From the NCBI GenBank assembly GCA_034687125.1, contig JAQGBZ010000298.1:1-64000 (forward strand): a stretch of 64,000 nucleotides of DNA, read 5' to 3'. Both the position numbers and the translations under genes were made by a program. The notes below the pieces were generated by a model. That model did not search any database. It saw only the letters and a list, made by a program, of their open reading frames with translations, and was not told the origin of the DNA. Origin of the DNA: Neelides folsomi. Its lineage: Eukaryota; Arthropoda; Collembola; Neelipleona; Neelidae. Each line of letters opens with the position of its first letter. The stretch's first letter is position 1. Shown piece after piece: positions 8,385 to 59,848 of this stretch.

Positions 8385-8690
8385 TTAAAGACTTTGAAGC
8401 TCCTCAAGGAAATTGACAAGTCACGCTAAATAACAAAAAAAATTTTTTGAATACGATGCGTAGTTAAATTAACTTTGCTCAATACAAATACAAAACTATT
8501 TCATATGTAATACATACACATAGGTACTCTAGGTATTATGTACTATTTGTCTGTAATAATAACAAAGACTACTTTATAAGATTTGGTCAAATTATAAAAA
8601 ACCGCAAACACATACTTCTGGTAATATACAATTAAAAATATTCATGAATTATTTGTATTTCCATCTAGTATATGCATAATGTATGGTACA

Positions 8691-9105
8691 CAGGGGCGTA
8701 GCGTGACTTGGTCCGGCCCGGAGGCGAGCGGCCATGGTCCGGCCCCTGTATATAATATACTCAAAATTCCATCAAAATTTTGAATATATCTATAGGTATA
8801 TAAATTTTTTAGTATTAAATAAATAAGATCATATTTTAAGCATTAATAAGAACCATAAGGGGGGCCGGACCTAGGCAAAATATATACTAGATATTATTCA
8901 AAAAATTAAACGAGATCACATTTGACGAGAATAAAAATAAATATGGACCTTGGTCAAGAGAAAATTTTAAAAAATTCAATTTTATTTAATCTAAAGTTCC
9001 TTGCAATTGGAAAAATATCTAGTGTCTACTCCGCATTGGTCCGGCCCCTCAGTTGTCCGGCCCGGAGTTGACAACTCCTCTTAACTCCTCGGCGCTACGC
9101 CCCTG
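8691..9105. mobile_element. hAT-type MITE with perfect 8-bp target duplication
   Basis: 415 bp element with 13-bp terminal inverted repeats CAGGGGCGTAGCG at 8691-8703 and the reverse complement at 9093-9105. Both copies are flanked directly by atggtaca (8683-8690 and 9106-9113), a perfect 8-bp target-site duplication. The 8-bp duplication and a terminus starting CAGGG (YARNG type) are diagnostic of the hAT superfamily. CCGGCCC motifs recur near both ends. No open reading frame, so it depends on a transposase elsewhere. Confidence 0.93.
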
Positions 9106-9156
9106 ATGGTACATATGGTACATACTCACTTAATGTCAGTCAGTAACAGTTATTAG

Positions 9157-10228
9157 TAAAGAGCGGATATTTATGCAAGGCAAACCCCGGAAACATGTAT
9201 GCAATATGCAGCCCAAAAATCGCTAAATATGCACGATATACATATGAATATAGTAAAGTTATAATTGAACTCCTGTGAACTCCATCATAAACTGTGGTTA
9301 GATTCAGATTGTGGTTAATGCTCCCGCTCCCGTATGACCCATAATGCTCGGCTCATGGAGCCTTGGTCGATGAGTTACACAGCGGAGTGATGACCTGATG
9401 TCAATAAAGGTCCGTGATAGTCTTAACTCTGTGGTTTATTCATGGACGTAGTCCATCCTACCGACCTAGCCCTAGCTTTACGAGCGAGTCCGAGTGACTC
9501 CTAATTGAGTGACTATAAGAGTCCCTCACCTTATATACTATGTACCACCTCACCACCCCACAATACATATAGGATCCTACTATATGCATATGGAAATATA
9601 CATTACAAGCTATTATTCGTATGTATAAATGGATATTAATTTACTTATTGACAACTAAATGGGCCTTTTTAAGATTATTTTGTCATCTATTACATAAAAA
9701 TGCTATTTCAATATCCTAATTGATTAATTATTTAGGTTATTAATTTCTGATATAAATATTGCATAGGTTTTGAATATTAAAATACTGTTACAACTTACAA
9801 TTAGCTTAAGTGTAGTATATAAACAGTAAATATTATACAATATGGTAGGTGTGATATGGATAGATTTAGTACCTTACAATTAAAACTATTGTCTTATTTG
9901 AATAATTATAACATTTATCATCTTTTGGATAAATAATTTTTATAAAATAATTTTTGCAATATGGTACTTATGCATATGAAGCTATGCGTGTATTAGTTTA
10001 TTTGTTAATTGGGTATAGAAAATCAATAAAGTAAGATACTTTAATAGTTTATTTTACTCAAAGTGTAACCCTTTCACTGAAAAATAATAAGGGCAAGTAT
10101 TTCAGTAAATAAATTCAATAAAATTTTCAAAAAGGCCAAATATATGCAAAATATGCAGACAATCCGAAAATATGTTAAATATGCAAAATATGCAAGGTAT
10201 ATGCAAAAACCTAAGAATCCGCTCTCTA
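9157..10228. mobile_element. Second non-autonomous hAT-like element
   Basis: About 1.07 kb element. The left end TAAAGAGCGGAT and the reverse-complemented right end TAGAGAGCGGAT match at 11 of 12 positions. It is flanked by gttattag on both sides (9149-9156 and 10229-10236). Both ends fit the hAT YARNG start. TATGCA motifs are repeated close to both termini (9171-9240 and 10138-10207), as transposase-binding subterminal repeats often are. No transposase frame is seen. Confidence 0.8.
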
Positions 10229-15600: not shown

Positions 15601-16165
15601 AAAACCAAGGATTTTGATTTATGGAAATATTAAGAATTAGACTTTCTAATCAAGATTAATAAATTTTGAAAGATTTTAATACTTTTTTTAATATTGATTA
15701 AAGGAAGATGAATAATTATTAACCCAACTAACTACAAATGGTATGTGTATCTATTTAACTTTCAATAGTCTTTTTTGTAACATGATTAGATGCACGTTGC
15801 TATTTCTTTTAATTCAATTTTGTCAATTCAAAATGTCTAATAATTAATTATTGACCTCTTGAATAGATTGTTAAGTATTTTTCATTTATTCCTTTTGCTT
15901 TTCAGCCGCTGAAAAAAAGCTGAGGGAGCTTGAAAACACAAGAAGTGAAATGGACGTGGAACTTCAAGCAGCCCGAGAAAAAAACGCTGAACGAAATCGA
16001 GAAATCTTGGAAACGCGACTTAAACTCTTTTCTGCCCCAATTGTGGAAGACGAGAAGATCACAAGAGCAAGAAGAAGTTTGAGTATGAGAGAAGGGAAAA
16101 CTTCCCAACAACCGCCATACCGCCCAAATCCCAATCTACCCAGAATTGAATTCGATCATTGTTAA
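12666..16165 (+). CDS. SWAP-70/DEF6-like PH domain and coiled-coil protein
   Basis: Homologue of SWAP-70 and DEF6, which act as phosphoinositide-responsive Rac regulators and actin-bundling proteins. Exons: 12666-12764, 13133-13465, 13522-13611, 13683-13826, 13891-14117, 14263-14434, 14543-14846, 15906-16165; 542 aa (family about 585-630). The N-terminus keeps the VWHAF motif and the EACWAL segment of the degenerate EF-hand region. The PH domain runs from about 223 to 310, ending with the invariant Trp (W303). A long charged coiled coil follows, including KRDEELVRNLQARIL, which matches the SWAP-70 coiled coil closely. The final intron uses a GC donor. The acceptor of exon 2 is the least certain junction. 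The basic stretch KKGHRRK of the vertebrate PH loop is not kept (here KRAEYLP). A poly(A) signal lies at 16176-16181. Confidence 0.88.
14847..15905 (+). other. GC-AG intron of the SWAP-70-like gene
   Basis: The reading frame LQLEG runs into a stop (TGA at 14857-14859) unless the donor GCAAGT directly after GAAG is used. Joining to the acceptor cag at 15905 keeps the frame and restores a typical coiled-coil sequence. GC donors of the form G|GCAAGT are a known minor class. At 1059 bp this is the largest intron of the gene, and it contains repeat copy A. Confidence 0.75.
15005..15558 (+). repeat. Dispersed repeat, copy A (full length)
   Basis: About 554 bp in the last intron of the SWAP-70-like gene. 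Its first about 138 bp and last about 125 bp recur almost unchanged at 17241-17504. No inverted termini or coding capacity recognised, so its class is unknown. Confidence 0.85.
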
Positions 16166-16862: not shown

Positions 16863-19238
16863 ATGTCAAAAAAATACATTTACTTCCAAAATGGTGAACT
16901 ATTTATTGAAGACATTAAAGTCAATGATTTTTTAAAAGACCTTGATTCCCAAGGGGTTAGTGAAGAGATTGAAGTGTCAAACAAGTAAAAAAAATAAATA
17001 TAATATACATTCTTGCAATAAATATTTATTTTTAATAGTTTAATTTTAAAGGTTAATCAAGTTTGATGTTCCGTCAACACCTGCCATCATTTACAGCAGA
17101 GAAGCATTAAGAACCAACGTCGAAAGGTATCTGGATGGGATGAAGAAGCATAAAATCGATGGAATACTTGGGTAATTCATTAACTTTTATGTAATGTGAA
17201 GAATGATTAAGTTTATTAGTAACTGTCTGTCAATGTGCAACAATTCTTGATAACCAGCGAAGGTTTCTTGATCTGCTACAAAATAAATTCCGATAGGACA
17301 TAAATTCAATTAAGTAATTGGAGATTAAAATTTAATTTAAAATTGATGGTTAAAGATTTAAGGTTCAGACCGACGTGAAGAATATTTGCATTAAAAATTA
17401 ACAAAGTCCATAAGTTGACGATAATTGCTATGTATTGGGATTGCCGTAATTTCGTTTGGGTGTTGATACAATCAAAGTCTTATTCACCCCTTCCACTTGG
17501 ATCATTTCTTCATTCTTTCATTATTATTTCTACCTACCTACAAATTCTATATTTCCAATAGATATGCTCTTAAAGCCAATGGGAACATTCACTTATTGAA
17601 AGAAATTAAATCCTTTGGAGTTTCGGCATTGGTCACAGTATCTGGATACGAAATCATCACAGGCCTCAAAGTCGGATTTTTACCCCAAAACATTATATTC
17701 AACGGGAATGGAAAGCAAGAGTAAGAGCAAAACATTTATAATACGCATATAAGTTAATTTAATTAGAGTGATCATTTTATAATATATTAATAATTTAATT
17801 TTTTATCAGTTGGGAAATGAAGTTAGCTGTTAGCGAAGGAGTTTATCTTAACGTCGATTCCTTGTTTGATGCTAAAAGGCTCGTTAGCATTAGCGCAATG
17901 TATCCCAACAAAACAAGTATTTTTTATTTATTTTATAATAATACAATATTGGTAAAATAAGTAAATATTATGAATGAACAAATAAATGAAATATTAAGAA
18001 GTTAAGAGACAATTTTCTTTTCAGTCAAAGTTCTTCTTAGAATCAAACCAGCTCCACTCCAATGCACAGTTTCCGTCCATCCATATGTGAATACATCCGA
18101 AGCCTCCAAGTTTGGATTTGATGTCGAGAAGGTGGACGAAGTTTTAGATGTTCTGCAGGAAAGTAAAAACATTCACGTCTCCGGAATTCACTGTCATCTT
18201 GGGTAAAAAACAAAGACCATTAAATCAATCTTGTTAAAATTGAGTCGTTGAAGGAGCTGCATTTACGATCCGGGGGTGTACGGTTACATAGCAAGTTTCG
18301 TATCTGAAGCGTCTGGGGTTTTAAAAAACCGAGGAATGAAAGTGGAATTGCTCGACATTGGCGGAGGAATTGGAATCGATTATGAAAGAACAATCGACGG
18401 GGTCTCTCCATTCCGCCTCGGCGACTCTCCGAGTTTTCCAGATAAAAACATCCCACACGTCGAAGACTTCCTTCAAATCATTTCTCGGTTCGTTTCACCG
18501 GAAACGAAAGTTTTGATTGAACCCGGCCGCTCTTTGGTATTTCATTCATATTTCATATGACATTCAACATGCATTTCCTTTCTACAAACTACGTATTTAT
18601 TCCCAACTGATTCTGGAACAAACTTTATATAACTTAATAAAAATCAGTCTGTGGTAAATTAACACATTTTTTATTCAAAAGGTTGGAAACGCCGGAATTC
18701 TTTTGACCAAAGCAATTGGAATCAAAGAAGGGAATGGGAAGAGGTTCCTTGTTACAGACGCAGCAATGACAGAACTCATTAGGCCTTGCCTTTACTCCTC
18801 CCATCACCAAATCTACCCGACCAAGCTGAGGATGAACGCAGAAGTGAGAAAAATGACAATGTCCAATTATGAACCTATTAGGTTGTGGAACAATAAGACA
18901 ATTAACATTATTTTGTAGTGGAAAACATATGATGTTGTTGGTCCTGTTTGCGAAAGCTCAGATTTTCTAGGCAAAAATATTGAACTTCAAGAAGGGAGCG
19001 AATATTTTGTTGTGATGGACGTGGGAGCTTATGGATTTTCCATGTCTTCGACTTACAACCTCCGACCAAAAGCTGCCGAGGTGAGCACGTTGAGTATTCT
19101 ATGGAAATTACTAATTATTCTGAATAGTTCCTCGCATCTGGAACCAGAGTGGAATGCATTCGTCGGCGACACACATTCAATGACGTCGTCTATGAGGAAA
19201 ATCAATTTGAGAGAAGGGCGACAGATGAAGAGAAATAA
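16863..19238 (+). CDS. Diaminopimelate decarboxylase (LysA-like), intron-containing
   Basis: PLP enzyme of fold type III. The bacterial and plant family converts meso-2,6-diaminopimelate to L-lysine and CO2. Exons: 16863-16984, 17052-17171, 17562-17720, 17810-17916, 18025-18202, 18257-18536, 18682-18843, 18919-19080, 19128-19238; 466 aa. Visible motifs: PLP lysine in YALKANG (K85), NGNGK, HCHLG (225-229), phosphate-binding GGGIGIDY (264-271), EPGRSL (317-322), catalytic CES in GPVCESSDFLG (C387, E388), and the PLP-contact tyrosine in VGAYGFSMSSTYN (Y414). HCHLG and VCESSDF mark the DAP branch rather than ornithine decarboxylase or antizyme inhibitor. Eight spliceosomal introns and animal neighbours on both sides argue for a host nuclear gene. 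Animals lack the rest of the lysine pathway, so substrate and role are open. An AATAAA overlaps the stop (19234-19239). Confidence 0.93.
17241..17504 (+). repeat. Dispersed repeat, copy B (internally deleted)
   Basis: Lies in intron 2 of the decarboxylase gene, same orientation as copy A about 2.2 kb upstream. It matches 15005-15142 and then about 15432-15558, lacking roughly 290 bp of the middle. Matching parts differ only at a few small indels and substitutions (for example ATAGCC versus ATTGCC). It makes up most of this 390 bp intron. Confidence 0.85.
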
Positions 19239-19509
19239 ATTCCTTCATCATGTAAAGTAGTCTGAATGATAAGCAGATACATACATAGTTATGAGAATAA
19301 TGAAAAGACATGTACAAATTGAATTATTTTGAATGAGACCAAAATGGAAATGGTGAAATAATGAATAAATCAATTTTCGGCCTACTTGCAATGGAATGTT
19401 TAATGAGCTACTAATATTATATACTAAATCTCAAGGAAATTGACTGACAATAATTGTACGATTGATGGTGGTTGATTAGCGAATTAGCTTTCATCAGATC
19501 TTTGGATAT
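19239..19509. other. Convergent intergenic region
   Basis: 271 bp between the stops of the decarboxylase and V-ATPase G. AATAAA copies at 19234-19239 and 19364-19369 could serve the plus-strand gene. Confidence 0.5.
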
Positions 19510-20413
19510 CTAAGATGGGCGGTAGTTCCGATGGAGCTCAGGTTTGATATCGCAGACAAATTCCAAAAGGCGACGAATGACCTGAAATAAATATTAATTA
19601 GTATTTTCCCTGTAATTAAAGATTGTTAAATTTAGTAAAAAATCATTCATTATTTCATTCACCTGCTCTTTGCTGGCAGAGACTTGATGTTTCATCTCTT
19701 CGATTTGACGGGTCGTGTTTTGATCAATTTTGGCCGCCACATCCTCTCGAGATCCCATATGCTAAAACAATTAAATCATTTGGTTAAATATCTAAATAAA
19801 ATTTGAAGTTTAAAAATATTAAATACATCATTTAGCCATCACCCCATCACTCCTTGAGTTTTCGTATATAACCGAACAGTGATAGTTAATCTTAATTGAA
19901 TAAAGTATATGAAATGCACAGGTGAATCTCCCTTTTACCTTAGATTCAGTTTCCTTAAATTGTCGTTCTCGTTCTTGACGGTATTTCTCAATTTCGGCTT
20001 GTGCCTCCTCCTTGGCCTGCTTCAGACGACGGGCTTTTCCTGGATTAAAAAATAAATAATCAAATCATTCATTAAACATTCGCTAAAAACCCCTCTCTAT
20101 ACAAAAAACACTATCCGAACACTCAATTTCAGAAATTTTAATAACTCAATGTTGTCTAATTGAATAAAAACATTAGGTTGGCCAATCATAGAACCCTTCA
20201 ACCTTATTAAAATAATTGTGATTGATTGTAATTAACCCTAAGTTGAAAGTCATTAGGGCGTAGCCAGATGAAGTTCGAATAATGTATTTATGTAAATAAT
20301 TGTTCACTCCTTGAATGTTTGAGTCCCTTACTTTTCCGAGCTTCGGCGACTTTCTCTGCTGCTCTCTTTTCGGCAGTGAGGAGCTGTTGGATCCCTTGAG
20401 TCTGGGAAGCCAT
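19510..20413 (-). CDS. Vha13: V-type proton ATPase subunit G
   Basis: Peripheral-stalk subunit of the V1 sector, which pairs with subunit E to hold the stator of the proton pump. Exons (minus): 20413-20332, 20039-19939, 19761-19663, 19581-19510; 117 aa, the standard length. It starts [12 protein letters not shown], near-invariant in animals, followed by a long charged helix with [16 protein letters not shown] and KHMGSRED, and ends [14 protein letters not shown]. Identity is secure from these motifs. Divergent from CDC45, with 545 bp between start codons. The symbol follows the fly name. Confidence 0.97.
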
Positions 20414-20958
20414 TGTTGAGGAACAAGGTCGAGACGGGGTCAGAAAGATGTCTTGGACTCTGAGGAACTGCTTTAACTACACCCAACCCAGAAATCTCTC
20501 ACGTGGGATGTTCGGAGGGATTCAACTCAAACCTGCCAATCCCCAGAGCAGCGGAACTCAACGAGCGACTTGCGCCTTCATCCATCACATGCGAGGGAAA
20601 TGCATGGTCCCTTTTATTAAACATTGGAATTTCATTTAAGCAATTCGAGCGAGCATTCTTTTAATCTTTACACTTTTTAATTTAAATTTGGTCAGTGTCT
20701 GACCTCAACTAATTTCCACATTAAATTTAATTAAGTGGAATCCGCTACATATTCCATTCATAAACATCTTTAGCGCGAATCAAGAATTGTTTCGGGGAGG
20801 CGTAGGAATTAGAAAGTAAAAAACACGAGTTCGTTCCTTCTCTTTTATTATTTCATCTTTCGATTATCTCATGTTTAACATTCTTAAATTTTAACTAAGC
20901 TAAAGGCAGAAGTTCATTGAAAGCTGCTTGTTGTTCCTGGGAAGGGTGAAGGTTCAAG
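20414..20958. promoter_or_regulatory. Divergent intergenic region between V-ATPase G and CDC45
   Basis: 545 bp between two head-to-head start codons, so it should hold both promoters. The plus-strand open frame at 20448-20639 is not like any known protein and I treat it as non-coding. Confidence 0.5.
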
Positions 20959-23612
20959 ATGATAATTACCGAATTGAAAGATGAGTTTTACAATACTCTC
21001 AAAGGAAAGGTAAGAAACCATTGTTATTAATTTTACTAAAATATATCAAATAATATTTTTATTAATTTATTTACACTGATGCTAATGATTTCTGACTTTT
21101 CTGACAAAATAGCGTGTTCTCATCGTGTCGAGCACAGACCTCGACTCGGTCGCAGCATGCAAGATAATTCAGCATCTTCTCCGGACGGATTCCATCCAAT
21201 ATACGCTTGTGTCTGTTGACGGCATCGATGAGCTTAAAGAGCATTTCCTTGATTTTGTCAACTCTGTAAATCAATTTCGATTTCATGATAATCCATATTT
21301 TCCAAAAATTATAAGTTATATTAAGCTAAACTCATATTTTAATTTACACCATAGATCCAAGTTACTATTCTTATCAATTGCGGTGGAACGATTGATCTTA
21401 AAGAGTTGTTGAATCCGCCAAATACTTCAACATTTTTCATCATTGATAGCCATCGTCCCATTCATATACTTAATATATATGATACTTCGAATCAAGTAAA
21501 AATTACAAGCATTATTATCATTATGTCACATTGTTAATTTTTACTATTTGGTGGATAACAAAATCAATTTTATTTAGATCAATATAATCTGGCCTCCAAA
21601 TGAAACCGGTGAAATTCCATCCTTTGATGATATATTTCGTCCCGATGAAGATGTAAGCTATACTTAAAACTTAAAATTAATAGAAAATAAATTGTATCAT
21701 ATGAATAGTATAATTATTAACTTTAGAAAAAATGAATAATCACTGTAATCAGTTATGAAAATAATGAATTGACACATTTTAGTCTGAAGGTGACGATGAC
21801 GATAGCATGGACGATGAGGCAATGGATACCGATGAGGAGGAAGATTCCGAAGTCGGGCAAAAGAGAAAACGAGTTCGTCAGCGATATACACCAGAGGAAA
21901 TTGCCAGAAGGCGTGAACATCGGGATTGGGCGACTAAGAGACAAGAAATTCTATACGAATATTCTCAGTACTCTTATTATTCCACGCCTGTAAGATATAT
22001 TTTAAAATGAACCATAAAAATTATATTTTTTTAAATGACTAAAAGATTCAATGAATTCATTTTATTCTTTTTAGGCAGCTTTAATGTTATTGGAACTTTC
22101 ATGGCAACTTTCAAGAGGAGAAATGGAAATCTTGTGGTGGTCAATCATCGGCCTAACTGACTCATTCGTCATGAAGAGAATGGAACGAGAGAATTATGTA
22201 GCTTTTGCTAATGAAATCCAAGCACAAGTATCTCGTCTTTCTCATTCACAATCCGTTCCACGAGAGTCTCTCAAAGTTACCTATGAAAATGAGCAAGGAC
22301 CAATTAATCAAATAGCCAATTGTTCTATTTGCAATAATAATAATGTTTCGCAATTCTTTTCAGACTGACTCTTTATCTTTACCAACATTGGAACGTGTAT
22401 GAAAGTTTGAAAATGACTCCTGTCTCGTCTTGCCTTTTCAAGTGCTGGTCGATGAAGGGAGAAAAGAAATTACACGAGTACCTTGCTGATTTGGGGTGAG
22501 ATTATTTGTCAACTATTTCCCAGTTTTATAATTTTCTATATTGACAACTATTAATTGTAAGTATTAAATGTTCATTGTATATTTATAGTGAAGTTAATAA
22601 TTAAAATAATTTTATAGTCTTCCGCTTGCACAAGTGAAGCAAAAATACAACGCCATGGATCTCGCAATTAAAAAGGATTTGAAAAACATCATTATGTCCA
22701 AAGCTGATAGATATTCTATGGAGGACATCATAGTGCCGTCGTTTTATGCTCAAATCGGATACAGACAAAAGCTGAATGCTTACGATGCTCATCTGCTTTG
22801 TTTGGCTTTTTGTGATGCTCCAGGTGAAGAAAAATCTCCGGCTCAAAAGTTCACAGATGCTTTGGACTGTCTCGATATGTAAGGAAATCTATTATTAATA
22901 ATTTCGGTATTTTAATCTGTTTAACATTTATTTTAAGTCAACATACATCGAGAATCGAAGCTGGGATAGTTCTTGCAAAAAATCTTCTTCATGCAACTTT
23001 CCAACAAGTCCAAGCCTTTGTTGAAGCTAATCAAGTCATTTCTATCGGATCTTTCTTATATGCAAGTATTCCTGAGGTATCTTTCATTTTTATTAAATAA
23101 TTTTTAAAAATGTGAATATGTGCAAATGTAAATATTGTTATCATTTAATCTATTTACTATACATGTGTAATGAAGCAAAAATTGAATTGTTTTTAGGGAG
23201 CTATCGACGCCAAATATTTCTCTCGGCCAAATGCCCTTCTTATGTTGGCCCATTATACTCTACGTGCTTGTGTGTCAACACCCAAATTGCAAAAGCATTC
23301 TAACCTTCCTTTAGTCCTAATGGCCCCAATTAAACGGGGATTTTTCATTGCTGCAGGAATTCCACCCATGTCTTCACACTCTATGCAAAAGTAATTAATT
23401 TACTTTTGAATAAATTAATTTTCTATTATTTTCCCTGGTTCTATTATTTATTCAATTAATTTTTTATTAGTTTGTTCGGGAGGGTTTTTGAACAATCGGC
23501 TGCTCGATTCCAAGATGGGATATCAATTGACTATTTTGATCCTTGTGTGGTGCAAGTGAGTGCCGATATTCACTCAAAATTCTTGGAACATCTAAACAAT
23601 CTTTTGACGTGA
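20959..23612 (+). CDS. CDC45: Cell division control protein 45 (CDC45)
   Basis: Component of the CMG replicative helicase (Cdc45-Mcm2-7-GINS), nuclear, needed for origin firing and fork progression. Exons: 20959-21009, 21113-21265, 21355-21495, 21578-21652, 21783-21989, 22075-22292, 22364-22495, 22618-22878, 22938-23076, 23197-23390, 23471-23612; 570 aa, matching the family. Motifs: N-terminal RecJ/DHH-like fold with SSTDLDSVAA, INCGGTIDL and IIDSHRP; an acidic, disordered insert at 141-165 followed by KRKR; then YSYYSTPAA, LWWSIIGLTD, LYQHWNVYESL, GLPLAQVKQKY, FSRPNAL and the C-terminal NLFGRVFE. Exon 6 joins exon 7 in frame only through a GC donor at 22293-22294. Confidence 0.96.
22293..22363 (+). 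other. GC-AG intron of CDC45
   Basis: The frame after TYEN must join LTLYLYQHW. No GT in the stretch keeps the frame without a stop. A donor GCAAGG right after AATGA, with the acceptor cag at 22363, gives ENELTLYLYQHW, matching the CDC45 family. The intron is 71 bp. Confidence 0.7.
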
Positions 23613-54300: not shown

Positions 54301-54650
54301 GGATGCGGCGGCTTCCAAATTTCATTTTATTCACTATCGACCAAAAGACCCTCCCGACCTCCTTTACTCGCCCCAACAAAACAAGAGAAACTTTCCTTAA
54401 TGCATTCATCCCATATAATCTATGTATATATTCCATCTAATATAAATGCATACGAACCATCCAAGAATCCATATAAATAAGTATAACTATACGAACATTA
54501 TATATTTACAAGTACATTCCCAATGGTGGCATGCACACTATGGACTGTTCGCCTTGCATACCCAATGCTTACTCTAATATATATACCATGTGAGGTCACA
54601 TACCTCATTTCAACCTTTTTTGAATTGAGCTCATTTTTATGAATTTTCAG

Positions 54651-57600
54651 TTGCGGATCGAGGAAAAGGGTTTCGGGTATGGCGCGACATGCAGGGCAAT
54701 TTTGCACCGAAGACTCCGAGTTTTCTCTCCCCGAAGGTGTGGACCTGGTCGGGATTGAAACTCCGAGGAAGCCCAGTTTTCCCAAGAGCATTCGGAAGAA
54801 CAAAGTGTCCACGTGGAGATCGTCCATTAAATTGGCGGCCATCAACTTGTTCGTGTGTGCCATCGTGGTGGGCTACGCTCTCATCGGCTCCTTCGTGTTT
54901 CTGGCCCTCGAGCAAGGGAGCCGTCTGGGGACGACGAACGTCCAAGTTTCGGCCAGCGGCTATCCGATGCGGAAGGGTGGCAACGTGACCATGGCCATTT
55001 GGAACACTATCCAGGGCGATGTGGTGCAGAAGCTCAAGGCCGACACCGTGAGGAACATTTGGGATATCACGATGAACATGAATATCCTTTACCCGGACAA
55101 CTGGACGAGGATGACTTCCGAAGAAGTGGGAAACTTCCAAAAGTTCCTCATTGAGAAGATTCTCACCGTGGTGGAAAACGCAACTATTCAAGAAGTTCCC
55201 TACTCGTGGACATTTCCGAGGGCTTTTCTCTTCGCCCTAACCACGCTCACAACGATAGGTGAGTTGTTCATTATTTTCAAAAGAAGGTGGTGTTGGAATG
55301 CATGTTGGGTAATGTGGATTTGGATTACCACCTTGTTCCTTATTTACTGCCCCATTTCCTCCCATGACTCCTCACGGAGGGAGTTTATTAAGAAGGGAAA
55401 AACTAATCTTCATAAAGATTCTTTTGGACCGATCAAAATGTTTACCATTCCGCGCCTTGTTCCCAAGAGGAAATCCTCCGTCTGTCACTAAAGAGAAGAT
55501 GGGCTATAAAATGAAGGATGATTCACTTTCCCCTCCCCACTTCCCTCTTCATCCTTTCATTATGAAAGGCCATAAACTCTTCTCATTCCTACTCACTTTC
55601 CCCCCACACACACACTCACAAGCATAAATAAATAATGAGAAGAGCAGGGAAGAAAGGTTGAGATTCAACCTCGGCATACGCCAACATAGCATGCACACTA
55701 ACTCCTTTATTACAACTTTCTTTACAACAAAGTATTTAGTATGAGGAATGACGGAATGAGAAATGGCTATATGTACACATCACTCTTATTATATCTGTAC
55801 ATACATTTGAAGTATTAAGATACAGCAAACAAAGACTTTTATATACAACCACCGCTACTGCATGTTATATTTACTTGTACCTATAACTAGTACTAGTTAA
55901 CCATAGTTAATATTATTATTGGTAAATATATGGTATGACTTTTATATGGTTCAAGTAATCAGTACTAACTTTTTATATGGTACACGTAAGATTGAAAGTG
56001 TTATAAATAAGTATATGAAAGCAGATAGCAAGTCTATCATTTCCATTTGTTTATTGTCTCGTCAAACTCGTGGCGTTTCGGCTCCTTTTCTTCGAAAGTT
56101 ATTATAATGAGTGGGATCTTGGAGATGGAAGGAAATTTCACACTTTCCCTTTCTCACTTCCCCTCGAGGGAAAGGCTATTAAGGAAGGGAAAAATGAGGA
56201 AAAGGGTTAAAAAAATTAAAATGAGATAAAGAACAAGGTTGAAGTCTCGTTCTCATAAAAGGAATTTCTCTGAGGAGAAAATGAGAAGTTTGAAATGAAA
56301 AGTATGGAAGAGTTTCCCCAACTGCGAAAGGAAGTGAGGGAGAGGCAGGGCATAAATGGGCCTATTTAACGCCTTCCCACTCTCCACTTTCATCATGAGC
56401 TCATCACGAGGAGAGTCCTTGAGATGAATTGGGGCGATTGGGTGATTTAATCCCAAGGCCCATCAGCCCATCAAATAGACGCAATCGGGAAGAAGAGATG
56501 AATGGCAATTTGATTGTCTGAGCCCAATTTCACTTTCTGTCTCTTTCTCCGAAGATTCTCAAAATTCCCCCAATTAAGTCCCCTTGAGAGGTATTTAAAT
56601 TATGTGGGGGAATATTTGAATAGTCATCCTTTCAGATTCATTCTTTGATAAACACCCAGAGTTTCATCAAGAAGATATTTGTCGGGCCGGGGAGTGAAGT
56701 TGGAGAAAATGTGAGTGAAGGGGTTTTGAGGCGGTTGTGAAGGTTGTTAATGGGCTTCTTCTCCAAAAAGAATTTTGAAGTCGGTGGAGGCCTTGGAGCA
56801 ATCCATTACTCCGCTTTAATGATATGCTTCCTTTGAACCTTGACTCAACCTGCCTCGCATTCTACCTTTGTTACTCCAACATTCTTTGTCCTCTTGGCGC
56901 CAACATGGAGTGGAGGTTGATATGAAAAGTGAAATTATAAACCATCCCTCTCATCTCCCGCTAAACGGCCCTTTTCATAAAGAGATAATTAATATTTAAG
57001 AGCCACCATAAAATCCAAAATCTAATCTGCACCTCATTTAATACCTTTTACTCCTTTCACCCACATCACTCCATTATTACTCACTTTCAACTTGGGCCTT
57101 TCTCTCCAGGATTTATCTTATTCTTTTATAACAATCCGTTTCAAGTCAGGTCTAGTTAATTAGTATATAACTAAAATTCCCATGTTCAAATATAAAGTGT
57201 GCCATTAGGATGATTATTAATTGAGGATTTCTAACCTAACTCAACAAATTAACTTTGATAAATTATCCGAGAAGGATTTAACAATGGAATATCTAGAATT
57301 TTATTTTCCAATTTTTTCTGTCATTAAGGAATAAGTGCACATAAGTAATGAAATGATCGTGGATGCTACCATGAATAAAATTGATCCTCATGGAAAACTT
57401 GGCGTGAGAATTCCATTTAGATAATAATGAAAGAGATTGTCCCAAGCTTAGCTCATTCGAGTAAAATTGAAGGATATTTGCTCTCAAAATTGGAAGCATT
57501 GGAGCGAAGTCTTTCAACTTGTATGGACTTGTGGAAAAATACAATTTAAGTGAATTTATCTCCTGGAGAGCTTAAAAAGTAAATCCATGGATTAACTTCA

Positions 57601-59848
57601 TTGAGTACAACTTTTTAACTTGGGAGCATTGTGTGTGAAAGGCGAGATCCAAGGCATGTCCTTTATTAGCAGCGTGTACGACTTTGTTAGAGGAAATTAA
57701 TGGAACCTCCTATGACGCGAATCGATAAAACTCGGTTGACACCAACAATAAGATTAAACTAACGGGTTTGTAGAACGTTGGGAAAGGCTCGGATTAATTG
57801 CATGAGGGATGGGTTTGAAACATGATAATTAAATACTTATCGGAGTTTTGGAATTATGAAAAGGTCGAGCAATGGGAAAGATGATTGTAGTTTGGAGATT
57901 GAGGGAAGAATGGTCGGTGGACCGTCCGCGGTTTTGGACCTTTCTGTACTTCCAACTTTTTTTATGCTCGAGCGTGCAATTTTCGTTGGCCCGAACATTT
58001 TGTGTCGAGAGGAAGGAGATTTATAGGCCATTAAATAAAGGCTTATTATGCCCCAACTTCCTCTTCGCACGGAGGAAAAGGCGACGTTCATTCCCATGCG
58101 ACTCTCGTCGGGGCCGCTGTCATCCCAACTCCCTTTTACTTCTCCCCACTTCCGACTTACATTTAAATTCTCATCTCATGAACCTCTCAGAGACGTTAAA
58201 ATAATCAATTATATATAAATATATGAACTAACTGGGGGCTCAATCAATGGCGGCGTTGAGCAGCGGCCAATCCAAATCCACAAGGCCTTTATTTTATGCA
58301 GACCAGATGGATCCCTTCCTTCTAATCTTTACATATGTTTGGACGACTGAGCCGGAAATGAATTTCTCTGGAGAAAACCAAGGGCCCAACCAGGATTTTT
58401 CATATATGCTAAAAAAGGAGTCTAATGGTTGGAAAATGATATTTCGACACATTGAGACATCAGTTTCATTTTCCCAATCCACTACTTTTTTCCGAGAACA
58501 AACAACACTTAGAGGAAATAAAAGAGAAAGCCGAGATGTGGTTACATATGTTTATGTAAGTAATGTCATGATATGTATTAGTATTGGCCTAACAGGAAGG
58601 TTTTGTTGTAAATAAGGGAAGGCGGGTTGTGTAATTATTTGAAAAACGTAATGAAAGTTTATTTAGCGAAACAAAGTGAATGAGGATTTCCTATCTGCTT
58701 TCTGGCCAGTTGGTTTCCCGACTTATGGCTAATTTAAGAGCAGAAGAATGGAATTGAGGCCGAATGGAAAGGGTTTTATGTTCTTTGTCTCTCCAATACA
58801 TTGGCGGAAATGGGATCATTTTTCACCCACCTGAAAGATTTGGTCCAATTGTGTCCTCAGAAGGCTTCTCCCATCATCATTATTACATACCTTGAGGAGG
58901 TGTGGGAGGAAATCAATGAGCCGTGTGGTAATTTATTTCTCCGCAGGGTACGGCGGCATTGGACCAAAAACGTCATCTGCCAAGATCGCGACGATGATCT
59001 ACGCCATATTCGGCATCCCCCTGATGCTCTGGTACCTCTCCAAAGTGGGATCGCTGCTGGCCAAGGTGGCCCGGTTCCTGTGCGGGAAAGTGTGCTGCTG
59101 CTGCATGTGTCGCGAAGGTCGCGGATCCGCGACCCCGTCGCCCTCCACGTCCTCCCACCGCCTCTCCGACCCCTACGGGTTCAAAGAGGAGGAGGAGGAG
59201 GAGGAGCACACGGGGAGCATCGGGCTCATCTCCACCGTCTGCGTCTTCCTCCTCCTGGGCTACGTGTTCGGGGGGTCGGTGGTGGTGTGTCGACTGGAGA
59301 AATGGCCGTTCCTGGACAGCTTCTACTTCTGCTTCCTCACCCTCACCACCATCAGCTTCGGGGATGTGCGGAGCCAGCGGAACGGCGGCCTCGAACGCCT
59401 CTCCCTCCGTACAGAGTGGTTCTGTGCTTTCTACATTTTCTTCGGCATGGCTTTTACCGCCATGTTCTTCAACATCCTTCACGAGGAGATTTCGAGACGG
59501 ATGAAGAGGTGGAAAGGGCCCACGGACCTCCACCATCACCATCACCATTTTCAAGGGGCCATTCCGGACCCGCCGCCGCCCGAGGCCGGGAGCAAGAAGC
59601 GGCGACAGGTCGAGAATTCATATTCGGTCCATTTTATGAATTTCCCTCCGCCGACGCCCTCGGCGAGCCGAGCCTTCACGGAGGAGACGCTCATGTCGAA
59701 CGAGATGCACATGAACAGGGTTCACTCCGTCGACCCGCCGGAGAAAAAGAGCTACGAGGAGCCGGAGCCTCCCACTGACTACGTCTTGACTCATCAGATC
59801 CCTCCACCGAAGGACATTTATGGGACGCATCATGTCTACCCGAGATAA
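54651..59848 (+). CDS. Two-pore-domain (K2P/TWIK-type) potassium channel
   Basis: Background (leak) potassium channel subunit of the plasma membrane; family members act as dimers. Coding exons: ATG at 54679 to 55258, and 58947-59848; 493 aa. The first exon begins at acceptor ttttcag (54644-54650), and the frame stays open between that acceptor and the ATG, so an upstream exon exists and could even add coding sequence. Topology: M1 about 51-77; long extracellular loop with sequons N102, N141 and N167; pore 1 with filter TIGYG (192-196); M2 about 207-231; cytosolic loop with a Cys cluster (243-248) and seven Glu (274-280); M3 about 285-307; pore 2 with filter TISFGD (328-333); M4 after EWFC; His- and Pro-rich tail. 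The exon codons are strikingly GC-rich compared with genes at 1-24 kb. The subfamily within K2P is not resolved. Confidence 0.94.
55259..58946 (+). other. 3.7 kb intron splitting the first pore filter
   Basis: Donor gtgagt at 55259 and acceptor ccgcag ending 58946 interrupt the first glycine codon of the GYG filter after its first base, an intron position known to recur in K2P genes. It is far longer than most other introns in this window. The open frame 58247-58615 inside it has no recognisable features. No transposon seen. Confidence 0.85.

Follow-up and report, generated by a model that had tools for sequence, protein, structure and literature searches.

An eight-intron diaminopimelate decarboxylase gene on an arthropod contig and a second-contig epimerase gene: a probable two-step end to lysine synthesis

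The window (the 64,000-nucleotide stretch of DNA analysed here, which belongs to the 79,298 bp contig C298) carries on its forward strand, at positions 16863–19238, a predicted lysA gene of nine exons that join into 1404 bases encoding a protein of 467 amino acids with no internal stop. Exon 1 (16863–16984), opening with the ATG start codon at 16863, and exon 2 (17052–17171) are followed by exon 3 (17562–17720), which contains the PLP lysine K85 in the sequence YALKANG, and by exon 4 (17810–17916). The HCHLG motif is found in exon 5 (18025–18202), GGGIGIDY and EPGRSL in exon 6 (18254–18536), R357 and Y361 in exon 7 (18682–18843) and C388, E389 and Y415 in exon 8 (18919–19080), with exon 9 and the stop codon at 19128–19238. 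The eight introns range from 47 to 390 bp in length, are all of the GT-AG type and have a GC content of 25%, as against 42% for the lysA coding sequence.

The genes around lysA on C298 are of host type. Upstream lie exons encoding fibronectin III and pyridine-nucleotide oxidoreductase domains and, closest to lysA, the probable last exon region of a further gene (15875–16165, forward strand), the ORF of which has no Pfam match. Downstream, the convergent neighbour of lysA is a multi-exon V-ATPase G subunit gene on the reverse strand (19494–20476, outer limits placed by eye), where the V-ATPase_G Pfam model scores 35.4 bits (cut-off 28.6) in the ORF at 20288–20476 and 23.5 bits, below the cut-off, in that at 19594–19761. 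The exons of a CDC45 gene follow on the forward strand (21113–22882), with three of the four ORFs tried exceeding the CDC45 Pfam cut-off. The first-pass annotation had described the decarboxylase gene as set among animal genes, and these two neighbours bear that out. The window has a GC content of 36.7%, and the genome as a whole comprises 840 contigs totalling 75.1 Mb. PF00379, a cuticle domain that we take to be typical of arthropods, matches this genome at least 39 times and is silent in 14 controls (prokaryotes only). Intradiol dioxygenase (PF00775) is typical of plant-feeding spider mites; a search of the genome gave no match to it.

Both structural parts of a PLP-dependent decarboxylase of this type, the PLP-binding barrel and the C-terminal sheet domain, are present in the predicted protein, which exceeds the Pfam cut-offs for Orn_Arg_deC_N (PF02784, 118.8 bits) and Orn_DAP_Arg_deC (PF00278, 72.4 bits). 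It also passes the NCBIfam equivalog model for lysA (TIGR01048), the cut-off of which is 297.9 bits, with a score of 313.8. Its closest relatives in the PDB are the plant chloroplastic chains 6n2a (E-value 1.3e-71) and 6n2f (4.8e-71), both presumably from Arabidopsis, followed by other diaminopimelate (DAP) decarboxylases. In a three-row alignment of the window protein with 6n2a and 2p3e (the latter, we assume, from Aquifex), K85, H227, G265–267, E318, R321, R357, Y361, C388, E389 and Y415 are invariant, as are the HCH of HCHLGS, the GGG loop and EPGR, and CES and GAY are present in the window LysA; we assume for these residues the roles usual in LysA, as PLP lysine and substrate site. That an open, spliceable frame with such scores should have arisen by chance is far beyond what chance would be expected to produce. 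Judged on its sequence, the window gene is thus confirmed as a predicted intact, intron-bearing DAP decarboxylase gene on an arthropod contig. The unbroken nine-exon frame and the motifs listed in the first-pass annotation (K85, HCHLG, GGGIGIDY, EPGRSL, CES and GAY) were all recovered in the joined protein, with eight GT-AG introns, 1404 bases and scores over the Pfam and TIGR01048 cut-offs; only the length needs amending, from 466 residues to the computed 467.

The same annotation had seen no other lysine-pathway gene and had proposed a genome search for dapF. Its observation is correct for the window but not for the genome, since a genome-wide search with PF01678 located, in two pieces, an intron-bearing dapF gene outside the window at positions 8687–9702 of a 16 kb contig, C731. 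The predicted gene has a single 154-bp GT-AG intron and its joined protein of 286 amino acids scores 273.4 bits with the DapF equivalog model TIGR00652, far above the cut-off of 114.65. Two more acceptors lie a few codons downstream of the one chosen and are likewise in frame, which makes the junction the least certain point of the dapF model. C74 and C227, which we take to be the catalytic cysteines, are both present. C731 additionally carries a piece of a glycosyltransferase gene (Glycos_transf_2 and Glyco_transf_7C) that looks, to our eyes, like an animal GalNAc-transferase. About 1.8 kb from dapF on the same contig is a threonine-rich, mucin-like open frame (L006, 6106–6900, reverse strand).

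Could either gene be a product of contamination or assembly error, that is, part of a foreign contig or a chimera? The assembly is certainly fragmented, at 840 contigs, but the AT-rich GT-AG introns of lysA, and the V-ATPase G and CDC45 genes downstream of it on the same contig, are difficult to reconcile with this explanation, and dapF too has an intron and shares its contig with an animal-type glycosyltransferase gene. We regard contamination or misassembly as extremely unlikely.

Earlier steps of the pathway were looked for as well. No match to DapA (PF00701, DHDPS) or DapB (PF05173, DapB_C) was found in the genome by a six-frame profile search that ignores introns, a search in which DHDPS matched 14 of 14 prokaryote controls and DapB_C 11 of 14, the controls including no eukaryotes. 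Because introns are ignored, a DapA or DapB gene could have been missed, although a six-frame search of the same kind did recover the nine-exon lysA. Since dapF and lysA are present and DapA and DapB unmatched, the last two steps are apparently encoded and DAP synthesis apparently is not: as far as tested, the animal would be able to convert LL-DAP to meso-DAP and then to lysine but would be unable to make DAP itself.

To place the window LysA among its relatives, a bacterial set was assembled from at least 592 matching stretches, of which 576 were relatives; the best 80 of these were kept, 11 of them from Poribacteria. Eukaryotic LysA was represented in the comparisons by plant chains only, one of which entered the trees. 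In a tree of 83 rows, the window LysA forms a clade with the plant and Poribacteria LysA proteins (SH-aLRT 99), and the same clade is recovered with support of 100/99 in a more careful tree of 33 rows, comprising 27 of the 80 loci, three plasmid records, the plant and Aquifex chains and the window LysA. All rows in the 33-row tree are LysA-like, and the value of 100/99 speaks to placement among LysA-like proteins and not to separation from ODC/ADC. The LysA phylogeny that the first-pass annotation had called for, against bacterial, plant, protist and invertebrate proteins, has accordingly been run for its bacterial and plant parts.

A sequence motif points in the same direction as the trees. 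Amongst the best 80 of the 576 relatives, 11 have GNGK and 57 GVGK, with 12 having another sequence or no match; NGNGK is found in the window LysA and in all five Poribacteria proteins inspected. The plant chloroplast enzyme (6n2a/6n2f) and the Poribacteria LysA-like proteins are the closest relatives found, at 39–41% identity, and share both NGNGK and the clade with the window LysA. Compared with the plant enzyme, the window LysA has no plastid transit peptide obvious to the eye, sits on a long branch, is longer by around 20 residues ahead of the barrel and carries an internal insert of 16 residues. Other sources of relatives were more distant or silent. LysA relatives were found in 152 plasmid records, the 20 listed being 29–35% identical, and in viral contigs four stretches matched the pattern with LysA alone and 50 with the alignment as query, none of them a relative. 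Planctomycetes are named in no record title among the bacterial LysA matches listed.

We infer from these affinities that lysA was acquired by horizontal transfer from a bearer of a plant/Poribacteria-type enzyme. Of the old horizontal acquisition put forward in the first-pass annotation, a foreign origin is the part that stands as most likely, judged on trees of bacterial and plant LysA. The long branch (1.9–2.9) and the identity of about 40% to the nearest relatives leave several candidate sources, namely an alga or plant, a bacterial group such as the Planctomycetes and a eukaryotic gene of long standing. Even for the plant lysA, the donor is termed undetermined in the available text of PMC2530860. 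The eight introns suggest that lysA has resided in the host genome for a long time, unless some of them came with the gene from a eukaryotic donor.

The last of these sources bears on a different account of the gene, in which lysA was inherited vertically as an old eukaryotic gene of the plant, choanoflagellate or coral type, this lineage having kept it where most animals did not, with dapF alone arriving by later transfer. Clustering with the plant enzyme and the presence of eight introns speak for such an account. It requires, however, that the gene was lost in nearly all other bilaterians, from which LysA is, to our knowledge, absent. Published reports can be read in its favour, as far as their available text goes: DAP-pathway genes of choanoflagellates are among the amino-acid HGT candidates described, and sponge and cnidarian orthologues of such candidates are mentioned (PMC7971027), the DAP-pathway genes of Monosiga are all said to be bacterial or algal in origin (PMC4046809) and a table of acquired genes traces a coral lysA to chlorophyll-c algae (PMC4878875). 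We consider vertical inheritance of lysA unlikely, if well worth keeping in mind, and prefer horizontal transfer.

The long branch and low identity also leave room for drift in the substrate choice of LysA, and the lysA score exceeds its cut-off by just 16 bits. On this basis it might be supposed that the protein is a neofunctionalised decarboxylase acting on another amino acid, as do D-ornithine/D-lysine decarboxylase and BtrK. We think this improbable: the models for two sister families score far below their cut-offs (DokD, 141.9 against 700; FslC, 99.6 against 500), the active-site residues of LysA are retained, and a genome that also carries dapF favours DAP as the substrate. A shift to another D-centred amino acid, raised as an option in the first-pass annotation, finds no direct support, and decarboxylation of DAP is the activity we would predict for the window LysA.

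The affinities of DapF are different. Of 369 genomes taken from the class of a Marinobacter that had matched, 348 contain a match, the best being 49% identical. All eight named genomes tried gave a match; identity was 39–45% in five gamma- and betaproteobacteria (Nitrosomonas at 45%) and 37% in both Poribacteria genomes, and fell to 32% in a SAR86 gammaproteobacterium. In the PDB, 1gqz is the best match (238 bits), ahead of the chloroplastic DapF 3ejx (182 bits), and 114 plasmid records contain DapF relatives, the 20 listed being 41–43% identical. In a tree of 39 rows, DapF emerges from an unresolved fork together with most of the rows, on an end branch of 3.4, with no supported sister group and the bootstrap unsettled. 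Bacterial classes beyond the gamma- and betaproteobacteria were hardly sampled in these comparisons, which lead us to infer that dapF was acquired by horizontal transfer from a gamma- or betaproteobacterium. Since the affinities of the two proteins differ (plant/Poribacteria for LysA, gamma/betaproteobacterial for DapF), lysA and dapF were probably acquired separately.

Acquired lysine genes of this kind are already known from sap-feeding insects. In the whitefly Bemisia tabaci, the host dapB, dapF and lysA genes are reported to have Rickettsiales, Enterobacteriales and Planctomycetes affinities, respectively (PMC4607527); the whitefly lysine genes, dapF and lysA among them, are reported to rescue E. 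coli knockouts and silencing of lysA to lower both lysine and fecundity, and a gain of introns is reported for one copy of the whitefly lysA (PMC8659303). As far as their available text goes, the reports of whitefly introns conflict, with the 2015 table giving introns for dapF and none for lysA (PMC4607527) and the 2021 report the reverse (PMC8659303). The mealybug Planococcus citri likewise has a horizontally acquired dapF and lysA, in this case of Rickettsiales type (PMC8659303, PMC5664097), and whiteflies and mealybugs are thought, in the reports available, to convert DAP to lysine jointly with their symbionts.

Several of these features recur in the genome analysed here. As in Bemisia (PMC4607527, PMC8659303), host dapF and lysA genes would complete the last two steps to lysine, the donors appear unrelated, at least one gene has a gained intron and dapF is of gammaproteobacterial type in the whitefly and gamma- or betaproteobacterial here. 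Bemisia additionally has dapB, and its LysA groups with Planctomycetes whereas the window LysA is of plant/Poribacteria type and has eight introns. The whitefly DapF is reported to group with Pantoea and to be 59.55% identical to E. coli DapF (PMC8659303), compared with about 42% between the DapF described here and the E. coli copies in PLSDB. Planococcus citri resembles this animal in having the dapF and lysA pair, with dapB not mentioned in the available text of the sources (PMC8659303, PMC5664097), but its genes are reported to be of Rickettsiales derivation, which is at odds with the affinities of the present pair. The coral lysA is a further animal gene for a DAP decarboxylase, and the source attributed to it is algal, not bacterial (PMC4878875); its bearer is a cnidarian, not an arthropod. 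Amongst the open-licence PMC titles and abstract starts listed, we recognised no arthropod lysA or DAP case outside whiteflies and mealybugs; apparent lysA mentions for Folsomia proved to be lysates and lysis buffer.

The present pair is thus a further case of the host dapF and lysA phenomenon already published, and it is not unprecedented, because Bemisia and Planococcus are reported to carry acquired lysA and dapF genes and a coral lysA has been listed. We found no description of an arthropod with a small genome in which a LysA of plant/Poribacteria type, its gene interrupted by eight introns, occurs together with a proteobacterial DapF.

For both genes the evidence is of the same kind: each is open, intron-bearing and accompanied by host-type genes on its contig, keeps its catalytic residues and passes its equivalog cut-off. 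Animals are lysine auxotrophs. DapF interconverts LL- and meso-DAP by means of two cysteines and no cofactor, and LysA carries out the PLP-dependent decarboxylation of meso-DAP at its D-centre to give L-lysine and CO2. The reading we favour, and consider reasonably probable, is that a working host LysA and a separately acquired host DapF make up a two-step terminal lysine module with which this arthropod finishes lysine from DAP that it receives. The incoming DAP would probably include LL-DAP as well as meso-DAP; its supplier might be a symbiont whose own pathway is shortened, the gut microbes or a diet of plants or algae. Host DapF would convert the LL-DAP to meso-DAP, from which host LysA would release L-lysine and CO2, so that the final steps would be performed by the animal itself. 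A further arthropod with the same terminal pair, its genes apparently drawn from different donors, would point to these two steps as a place where lysine synthesis can pass to the host repeatedly.

Regarding supply, the first-pass annotation had proposed that DAP might be salvaged from peptidoglycan. This may be so, but the animal would have little need of an epimerase if meso-DAP from ordinary peptidoglycan were its sole source, and a supply of LL-DAP fits the presence of DapF at least as well. Such a supply, whether from the plastids of plants or algae, from LL-DAP actinobacteria or from a symbiont whose pathway is shortened, is no less likely than salvage from peptidoglycan. A search of the genome for an NlpC/P60 endopeptidase found none, the one candidate scored giving no match. 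In a bolder version of the module, which we hold to be rather doubtful, a compact-genome arthropod beyond the sap-feeding hemipterans would use genes from two unrelated donors to salvage DAP from the bacteria, algae and plants that it eats, with no nutritional symbiont. Were that true, the animal would be a partial lysine prototroph living on a cell-wall or plastid intermediate and, if it has no DAP-making symbiont, DAP derived from diet or peptidoglycan would be a real nutrient source.

The animal relatives of LysA are ornithine decarboxylase (ODC) and antizyme inhibitor. The window protein is not closest to animal ODC, PDB LysA chains reaching E-values of 1e-71 as against 1.1e-12 for the best ODC chain, 4aib, and 7.5e-7 for human ODC, 1d7k. 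Elsewhere in the genome, PF00278 matches two ODC-like pieces at the ends of contigs C110 (184 kb) and C653 (23 kb). These pieces (L008, 5292–5696, and L009, 8242–8724) correspond to complementary parts of the C-terminal profile and are possibly the two halves of a single predicted ODC gene that was split by the assembly. Within the window itself, an ion-channel gene at 54643–59848 has two stretches matching Ion_trans_2 in its second part, giving it by eye the look of a two-pore potassium channel, and this second part has a GC3 of 77%, far higher than its AT-rich surroundings.
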